Origin: Firmicutes bacterium UBA3871 | GTDB lineage: Bacteria; Bacillota; Clostridia; Peptostreptococcales; Anaerovoracaceae | NCBI GenBank assembly: GCA_002392265.1 | Contig: DGGP01000036.1 | Span: 1 to 14,441 of the forward strand | Length of the DNA: 14,441 nucleotides | Direction: 5' to 3' | Shown: positions 11,446-12,799 of the stretch, piece by piece | How positions within the stretch are numbered: position 1 is the stretch's first letter | Layout of the letters: every line of letters begins with the position of its first letter | Position numbers and translations under genes: made by a program | The notes under the pieces: generated by a model | What the model was told of the DNA's origin: nothing | The model's input: the letters and a program-made list of their open reading frames with translations, nothing else | Database searches by the model: none

Positions 11446-11476
11446 ACTTTATATGCTTTATTTGCTTTATATGCTT
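11446..11476. repeat. 9-bp tandem repeats across the hpt stop codon
   Basis: ACTTTATAT, GCTTTATTT and GCTTTATAT follow one another at 11446-11472, then GCTTT begins a fourth copy. The hpt stop codon (11467-11469) lies in the third unit. The period is three codons, so copy number changes would add or remove residues without a frameshift only on the coding side. Confidence 0.75.
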
Positions 11477-11841
11477 TCCTTGAAAAGGGTTATTGCGTCA
11501 ACAACCTTTCCATAATCGGTGCCTACCTTTTTTGTCAGAGCCTCTATTTCATGCTGCGGAGTCGGCTCCTTGCCCGGACGAAGCGCATCAGTCAAAAGAC
11601 TGGTCGATTCATAAAGCCGGGTAAAGCTGAAATTCTGCGCAATGCCCTTTAGAGTATGTGCCGCTCTGAAAGCGGTGTCATGGTCACCTGTGTTTAAGGA
11701 TTCACATATTTTCTTATAGCTGTCATCGTCCAGAAACCTCAGTATGAACTTGATTATTCTGTCTTCGGTGAGCAGCCTGGAATAGACGTCGTCGTAGTCG
11801 CCTCCCAGCTTGTCATAACATTCTCTGACGGACACAGTCAT
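11467..11841 (-). CDS. HPt-domain phosphotransfer protein
   Basis: This is a small histidine phosphotransfer protein of 124 aa, all one HPt four-helix bundle. The phosphoacceptor is probably His62 in AFRAAHTLKGIAQN (57-70), with the flanking Lys-Gly typical of the family. It would pass phosphate between a sensor kinase and a response regulator. The open frame extends to an ATG at 11863-11865, but GGAGG lies 7 nt before the ATG at 11839-11841, so that start is used. The gene follows the response regulator after 75 nt and has a candidate promoter of its own with direct repeats. No histidine kinase is encoded in the window. Proteins of this size with the CYDKLGGDYDDVYSRLL-type start are common in Clostridia; their partners are mostly unknown to me. 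Confidence 0.9.
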   Translation of the reverse strand: MTVSVRECYDKLGGDYDDVYSRLLTEDRIIKFILRFLDDDSYKKICESLNTGDHDTAFRAAHTLKGIAQNFSFTRLYESTSLLTDALRPGKEPTPQHEIEALTKKVGTDYGKVVDAITLFKESI

Positions 11842-11863
11842 AACGCTTCCTCCTACAATATGC

Positions 11864-11869
11864 ATTATA
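11864..11869 (-). promoter_or_regulatory. -10 element of a candidate hpt promoter
   Basis: Minus-strand TATAAT (11869 down to 11864) lies just upstream of the hpt ribosome binding site and would give a leader of about 16 nt. No good -35 is present at the right distance; that position is taken by the 11-bp repeats. This is what an activator-dependent promoter looks like. Confidence 0.55.
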
Positions 11870-11876
11870 CAAAAGC

Positions 11877-11920
11877 AACCGCATTAGAACCGCATTAAAA
11901 GTGCACCGAAAGTGCATTAA
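11877..11920 (-). promoter_or_regulatory. four 11-bp direct repeats, putative SARP-type operator
   Basis: On the minus strand four units run head to tail: TTAATGCACTT / TCGGTGCACTT / TTAATGCGGTT / CTAATGCGGTT. All four share TGC at positions 5-7 and TT at positions 10-11. The last unit ends 7 bp before the TATAAT box. SARP activators are known to bind direct repeats of 11-bp period placed about 8 bp from the -10. The regulator encoded immediately upstream has a SARP-type domain. The first unit overlaps its stop codon. The repeats are seen directly; binding is inferred. Confidence 0.65.
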
Positions 11921-12723
11921 ATGTTATTTTTTTTCATATCAAAACGCCCTGCCATATAATCCGCCCAAACATACTGCGCCATGTATTCGCCCATATAGGT
12001 CCTGGCTGCTTCCTCGCTGCCTGCCATATAGTCAAAATAGTCACAGGATAACTTGTCCGGAACAACTGCAATGGTCCCGCGGGCTTTGGAAAGGACATCT
12101 CCGCACCCTACTTCATTAAGGGTGTGCGAAAGATCCGAAACCAGAGTCCTGAGCTGGCTTTGAAGAGACTCGCTGTCTTTGCGGTCCTCATAAAGCACTG
12201 CAACCAGCTCTCTGACCGTAACCGCCACACCGCGTCTGTGAATCAGGTAGGCGAGCAGTTCCTTTGATTTTGAGTATTTAAACTTCAAAGGAACATCCTT
12301 GTAGAATATGTCAAAATTGCCAAAGCACTGCGCTCTGAGCGGCTTTAAGCCGTGTTTTGCTTTTGAGCTCAGCTTTTCTATGTATGCAATTTCTTTCCTG
12401 ACAGACTCCACCGATGCAGGCTTTAGAATATAACCTGCAGCATGGACTTTGAACGCATCCAGTGCAAACTCGGTCGAACCTGTTACGAAAACCACATGGC
12501 AGTCCTCCTGCAAATTCGATATTTCCTCTGCCAGCTTTAATCCGTCCATGTAACTCATCAGGATATCCAAAAATGCAATATCCGCGTGATTGTCCTTTAA
12601 CCAGGAAAGCGCTTCTTTTGAACTTTTGAAGGGTACAACTTCATCAATTTCCGGCGTGTCGCTCAGGATTAAGGTTAAATAATCTAACGAAATGGGCTCG
12701 TCGTCAACTGCGATGACTCTCAT
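11917..12723 (-). CDS. response regulator with SARP-type DNA-binding domain
   Basis: This 268-aa regulator has an N-terminal receiver domain (about 1-118) with acidic pair D7/D8, phosphoacceptor D53 (AFLDILM), T81 and K101 in the KPAS motif, so it is complete. A short linker leads to an OmpR-like winged helix of the SARP type (about 128-225). Typical features are CFGNFDIFYKDVPLKFKYSK (133-152), an ELLAYLIHRRG helix (155-165) and a LQSQLRTLVSDLSHTL recognition region (187-202). A truncated transcriptional-activation segment follows, ending in EYMAQYVWADY (246-256). GGAGG lies 5 nt before the ATG. It precedes an HPt gene, its likely phosphodonor, and four 11-bp repeats that could be its own binding sites. 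No cognate kinase is visible. Target genes beyond hpt are unknown. Confidence 0.9.
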   Translation of the reverse strand: MRVIAVDDEPISLDYLTLILSDTPEIDEVVPFKSSKEALSWLKDNHADIAFLDILMSYMDGLKLAEEISNLQEDCHVVFVTGSTEFALDAFKVHAAGYILKPASVESVRKEIAYIEKLSSKAKHGLKPLRAQCFGNFDIFYKDVPLKFKYSKSKELLAYLIHRRGVAVTVRELVAVLYEDRKDSESLQSQLRTLVSDLSHTLNEVGCGDVLSKARGTIAVVPDKLSCDYFDYMAGSEEAARTYMGEYMAQYVWADYMAGRFDMKKNNI

Positions 12724-12770: not shown

Positions 12771-12799
12771 ATAGTATCACGGATTTTCCGCGATTTCAA
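12771..12799 (-). promoter_or_regulatory. promoter of the response regulator, with an inverted repeat in the spacer
   Basis: On the minus strand TTGAAA (12794-12799) is followed after 17 nt by TACTAT (12771-12776). The spacer contains CGCGGA-AAA-TCCGTG (12792-12778), an inverted repeat with one mismatch, which could be an operator. The same stem might act as a poor terminator for the lipoprotein gene upstream, but no T run follows it. No other terminator is seen in this gap. Confidence 0.6.

Follow-up and report, generated by a model that had tools for sequence, protein, structure and literature searches.

Four 11-bp repeats lie between the gene of an orphan response regulator (RR) and an HPt gene in the window (the whole stretch of DNA analysed here, 14,441 nucleotides), and the locus raises the question of whether these repeats form an operator, which gene it would serve, and which protein would read it. 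In our assessment, the array is quite probably a SARP-style operator of hpt, through whose units 3 and 4 an RR, most likely the one encoded just upstream, would activate transcription, in a layout that recurs in a clostridial group of RRs.

The array and the promoter region of hpt

The four units follow one another without gaps at 11920-11877 of the minus strand, which also carries all the genes flanking the array. Specifically, unit 1 (TTAATGCACTT, 11910..11920) overlaps the stop codon of the RR gene (11919-11917), unit 2 (TCGGTGCACTT, 11899..11909) adjoins it, and units 3 (TTAATGCGGTT, 11888..11898) and 4 (CTAATGCGGTT, 11877..11887) form the promoter-proximal pair. The -10 box TATAAT (11864..11869, minus strand) stands 7 bp past unit 4 and 14 nt past the start of the TGC of that unit, and the Shine-Dalgarno sequence of hpt, read from the sequence as AGGAGG, follows at 11849..11854 of the same strand. 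The earlier note had described four gapless 11-bp units that end 7 bp before TATAAT with no normal -35 element, and both the coordinates and a minus-strand promoter scan, in which no sigma-70 -35/-10 pair ends at the TATAAT of 11869-11864, agree with this description. The downstream gene (11467..11841, minus strand, start ATG at 11841) codes for a protein of 124 aa that contains an Hpt domain (PF01627, E 1.6e-8, 35.1 bits against a cut-off of 24.6) and the phospho-accepting histidine in an AHTLKG motif; an alternative ORF of 132 aa begins within the -10 box and is unlikely to mark the start of HPt. On the other side, the RR gene likely has its own promoter at 12771..12799 of the minus strand (TTGAAA, 17 nt, TG-TACTAT), which is a consensus match only, and inspection by eye of the sequence upstream of the gene revealed no repeat array at this promoter.

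At lag 11, the array matches itself at 24 of 33 positions, while dinucleotide-shuffled copies of the window (n = 200) reach at most 21 of 33, and at least three units of the pattern proposed in the earlier note occur in none of 200 such shuffles. Lags 9 and 13, however, score 27/33 and 31/33 elsewhere in the window, so that the period of 11 alone is not unique there. Since this within-window test is not decisive by itself, relatives of the locus were compared, and the decisive evidence for the array is comparative.

HPt relatives are encoded in 94 of 296 family genomes and, among 30 HPt loci of these 94 genomes, this RR precedes HPt only in the window genome (G000) and in G002; several other HPt genes seem, from their neighbours' sequences, to follow EAL- or GGDEF-type genes. 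The RR of G002 is 62% identical to that of the window. The earlier note had expected the repeats to be kept where the gene pair is kept and, in this one other genome with the pair, the expectation holds for the two proximal units and for the spacing of 14 nt between TGC and the -10 box, here TAGTAT, and not for the outer two units. These outer units form a 6-pair hairpin, TGCAC-TTTCG-GTGCA, followed by CTTTT, and may double as a weak terminator-like element, so that four functional units, as the note had it, are not supported. The same hairpin could be taken to mean that the repeats are mainly the intrinsic terminator of the RR transcript and that the promoter is incidental; we consider this very unlikely, because the array folds no better than its shuffles (z 0.08, or z -1.31 when the sequence is extended as far as the hpt start), the units kept in G002 lie outside the hairpin, and the period of 11 with a -10-like box recurs elsewhere with many other repeat letters.

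The layout behind relatives of the response regulator

The comparison covers 70 distinct relatives, i.e. 72 loci minus the duplicate proteins of L196 and L200; L009, whose RR runs off the contig end, and 12 matches without a locus were left out, and L089 was kept despite having only 46 nt behind its RR. The test asks whether the 200 nt that follow the RR gene contain the same 6-bp sequence twice, in direct orientation and without mismatch, at a lag of 6-25. Lag 11 is found in 30/70 relatives and every other lag in 0-6 of them, with only 53 of the 70 having a gap of at least 50 nt behind the RR. The lag-11 repeat is present in 2/70 upstream of the RR and in 1/70 within the final 200 coding nt. 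When a TANNNT box is also required, 13-18 nt downstream of the point where the second copy begins, 28/70 relatives have it at lag 11 and 0-2 at the other lags from 6 to 30. After clustering at 60% protein identity, the repeat is found in 18 of 42 clusters.

Since the layout was first found by looking, the test was repeated on a class-wide sample of genomes. In this held-out set of 29 new loci, lag 11 appears behind 11 RRs (other lags 0-4), together with a -10-like box behind 10 of them (other lags 0-1), and also upstream of the RR in 3/29. The exact 6-mer repeat is absent in 40/70 of the initial loci and in 18/29 of the held-out ones. Moreover, the repeat occupies 26/53 gaps behind the RR as against 1/29 other gaps in the same loci, or 23/53 as against 0/29 when the -10 is included. 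The claim of an activator-type array at SARP geometry, tied to the RR gene just upstream, is supported in that the layout recurs behind diverged relatives and is rare in control gaps.

The letters of the repeats vary by lineage (TTGC, GTTACG, GTCGC, TGCAACGGT, TGTTGGACA, TTGACA, GTAAC, GATGTGCTTT, GTTTAGAAT and more), and the geometry and the position stay. Regulators of the WalR and PhoP type bind 11-bp direct repeats, a habit general for OmpR-type proteins, and the array could accordingly be the site of such a regulator, unrelated to the adjacent RR. Each of the three members of the genus does encode three proteins that match PF00486 at E <= 1e-8. A housekeeping regulator would nevertheless be expected to keep one motif, while here the letters shift and the place behind the SARP-like RR is constant; furthermore, among 30 plain OmpR-type (PF00486) genes, which often have no gap behind them, a repeat at lag 11 is found behind just one, where a -10-like box is present too, and behind none of the other 29. 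We therefore regard a site of an unrelated OmpR-type regulator as improbable.

In G048, G089, and G010, a GTTAC pattern drawn from the sites behind their RRs has one genome-wide match each, which is that very site. The pattern also matches one site each in G163 and in four g125 genomes, and the four of these five sites that were inspected lie near genes that read as coding for surface-layer or cell-wall-binding proteins; none of the four is behind an RR. The link between the repeat letters and the recognition helix is weak, not tight: when the similarity of motifs was compared with that of recognition helices in representatives of 20 clusters, 83 of 2000 permutations scored as high, and the rest of the protein performs about equally (114 of 2000).

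Some loci display the layout in other forms. In G000 and G001, the C146-type RR (L163 and L164) has behind it 3-4 units with different letters (GTTACGGAA/GTAACGCAA) at the same period of 11, and the gene that comes next reads as one for a PilZ-domain protein. This array escapes the exact 6-mer test, and 30/70 is thus an undercount. L261, a relative in another family, has three AAGTCCTAAT units of period 11 located 25 nt behind the RR stop, with TAAAAT soon after. Only L261 and L192 pass a strict exact-match test for three units, which the window array fails because its letters vary between units. Lastly, behind two RRs of G148 (L097 and L166) lie short genes whose leader-like sequence terminates in a motif of the double-glycine type, and these genes perhaps code for precursors of peptide natural products, judging by their translations.

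Sites across the genus and their candidate binders

The genome-wide search for TGC-type units upstream of a -10 box that the earlier note had proposed turned out positive in this genus. The pattern TGCNNTTNNNNTGC-N10-12-TANNNT has 17, 12, and 9 matches in the three members and 1, 0, and 0 when reversed, the gap being exactly 11 in 30 of the 38 matches and 10 or 12 in the other 8. With the gap fixed at 11, there are 13, 11, and 6 sites as against 0, 0, and 0 for the reversed pattern, and the resulting densities of 8.8, 6.5, and 5.0 per megabase are the three highest among 197 family genomes, the next being 3.1. No ORF of 90 aa or more covers 24 of the 30 sites, and the six that do lie within one are probably due to chance. 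Five of the 30 are directly behind a SARP-like RR (C160 and C27 in G000, C168 in G001, C42 and C117 in G002), while other sites precede genes that read, from their translations, as methyl-accepting chemotaxis receptors, a fliK-like gene adjoining fliJ, an exported protein, a 28-aa peptide, and a candidate sRNA.

A sigma-54 promoter carries GG at -24 and GC at -12, and the common genus variant TTGCAC-N5-TTGC is one letter off this consensus, with the sigma-54 DNA-binding domain PF04552 encoded in all three members. The window array could then be a promoter of this type, but in all four of its units a T occupies the position of the first -24 G, TATAAT stands at the usual -10 place instead, TANNNT is found at a fixed distance (the gap of 11 in 30/38 matches), and other lineages keep the same geometry with unrelated letters. 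These features make a sigma-54 promoter extremely unlikely. The search pattern itself demands T at the first G of -24, and the T of the other genus sites is consequently no evidence on sigma-54.

A more serious competitor of the adjacent RR is its paralogue, the SARP-like RR of the C27 type, which all three genus members encode with an array of its own (TTGCACTTTTRTTGC) behind the gene. This paralogue might be the real binder, and the window array one site of its genus-wide regulon. Arrays of the same type follow the C27-type RRs in 3/3 genomes, and genus sites are present in G001, which keeps 11 of them and in whose incomplete assembly the window RR is not found, so that a paralogue may be the protein bound at some of the genus sites or at all of them. 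On the other hand, each of the two RR types has a separate array behind it, and the TAATGCGGTT variant occurs only in the two genomes with the window RR, G000 and G002, and is absent in G001 (n = 3, incomplete assemblies). Specifically, TAATGCGGTT-N-TAATGCGGT at up to 3 mismatches has 3 matches in G000, 0 in G001, and 2 in G002, compared with 0, 0, and 1 for the control, in assemblies that are incomplete; one of the three matches in G000, at 3 mismatches, looks poor. Binding by the C27-type paralogue is in our view the less favoured possibility, with a minor yet appreciable share of the probability, and the adjacent RR remains the preferred reader of the window array.

A candidate sRNA is present in all three genus members (L155:1583-1800, L156:1460-1680 on the minus strand, and L158:1515-1740 on the minus strand); it opens with a hairpin, continues with 51 nt that are the same in all three members and include ACTCC and GGGGT, and closes with a terminator-like hairpin. 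These 51 nt begin 47-92 nt past the -10 box of a promoter of the TGC type, and the candidate has no Rfam match at the gathering threshold. The 28-residue peptide, which is MTKKYFKANIAIAFMAIVFYAAEIFIFY in G000 and has a similar counterpart in G001, is encoded behind a TGC-type promoter in L145 near 1129 (minus strand) and in L157 near 1571, and is probably membrane-bound. In L153 of G000 (468-769), a double repeat of the TAATGCGGTT type stands just before a match to the cobalamin riboswitch, whose score is just at the gathering cut-off, and is followed by an ORF whose product reads as exported. Behind the site of L159 (G002), a raiA RNA begins about 130 nt after the -10 and may have a promoter of its own.

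The regulator, its proposed action and known systems

The candidate binder of the array is encoded at 11917..12723 of the minus strand, in 268 aa that comprise a receiver, an OmpR-type winged helix, and three short C-terminal helices. The phospho-acceptor set D7, D8, D53, and K101 is invariant in 53 sequences. The AlphaFold2 model (pLDDT 94.4) displays the OmpR-type winged helix with only three helices after it, and within this model helix 185-204 is likely the recognition helix. Compared with PDB, the profile of the effector domain finds EmbR best (2fez, E 5e-4) and then AfsR (8hvr, E 0.064). PF00486 is matched by 43/53 RR members at E <= 1, and by the window RR at 0.036, under the curated cut-off. 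SARPs are defined, in excerpts of PMC10663231, as proteins with an OmpR-type DNA-binding domain plus a BTAD. The first of these domains is present in the RR according to both the model and the profile matches. The BTAD (PF03704) is absent from the three Pfam families that match the window RR at E <= 1, and is not among the best 25 of the 38 Pfam families listed for the 53 RR members. None of the best 50 matches of either whole-model fold search is a SARP entry, although these matches are mainly receiver domains or two-domain RRs and are uninformative on the effector domain. The RR is thus SARP-like and not a SARP, with a winged helix nearest to EmbR and AfsR and no BTAD match; strict membership among the SARPs is not supported, and it looks SARP-like in its action at DNA.

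In SARP promoters, according to excerpts of PMC10936776 and PMC10972967, two or more repeats, typically of 11 bp, end with a 3' copy about 8 bp before the -10 in the company of a poor -35; the excerpts of PMC10936776 add that SARPs cover the place of the -35 and dock sigma region 4. The window array, whose period is 11 bp and whose last unit stands 7 bp from the -10, departs from the rule published there by no more than 1 bp. SARP repeats are spaced at 11 or 22 bp. By analogy, the phosphorylated SARP-like RR would bind units 3 and 4 side by side, where a -35 element would be, and recruit RNA polymerase to TATAAT, with the outer units 1-2 perhaps serving as extra sites and as a weak terminator for the RR transcript. 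The sequences show the array, its recurrence, its geometry, and its position, and from these we infer direct binding by the RR, activation, control by phosphorylation, phosphotransfer, and a feedback of HPt on the RR. HPt may phosphorylate the RR, drain it, or serve another system. In this RR group of Clostridia, the recurring order would be an RR gene, a private operator of at least two units with a -10, and then a target gene that varies by lineage.

The recurrence suggests that, for each RR, the sequence immediately following the gene would reveal the binding site. We give about even chances to a broader reading, in which a clostridial class of receiver/winged-helix proteins keeps a private operator and promoter behind the gene, with drifting letters and a frozen geometry, and in which one group has turned global in this genus, reaching chemotaxis receptors, surface proteins, and a new sRNA. 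If this class reading is true, genomes hold ready-made pairs of regulators and binding sites for a recognition code; the binding site and the first target of many uncharacterised regulators could be read behind their genes; the rules of winged-helix recognition would become testable in bulk, with regulator/promoter pairs for anaerobes as a further yield; and the SARP mode of activation would not be confined to the antibiotic clusters of actinomycetes, being used by two-component regulators across Clostridia.

Among the open-licence papers listed, none has a title or a start of abstract that describes a SARP-type operator or such an RR in Clostridia, which is weak evidence of absence, and the matches to SARP or BTAD in gut anaerobes in PMC11747023 are confined to its reference list. 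A homologue (P0088) with 41% identity belongs to the same protein group under the name "two-component SAPR family response regulator" given by its source, and the literature searches brought up no described operators for such proteins and, under that name, no paper. Two other homologues, P0002 and P0003, are 77-80% identical.

Among known systems, the RRs of the PhoB/OmpR type share with the window RR the combination of a receiver with a winged helix, and they too use 11-bp direct repeats; the window RR differs from them in its PF00486 score below the cut-off, and plain PF00486 genes differ in that 29/30 have no lag-11 repeat behind them. The Streptomyces SARPs (AfsR, DnrI, ActII-ORF4) and EmbR resemble the clostridial system in the OmpR-type winged helix, in the 11-bp repeats near the -10, and in the poor -35. 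Unlike SARPs, the clostridial RR is fused to a phospho-receiver, is unmatched by BTAD in Pfam, and has only three C-terminal helices, and its operator lies directly behind the gene of the regulator.
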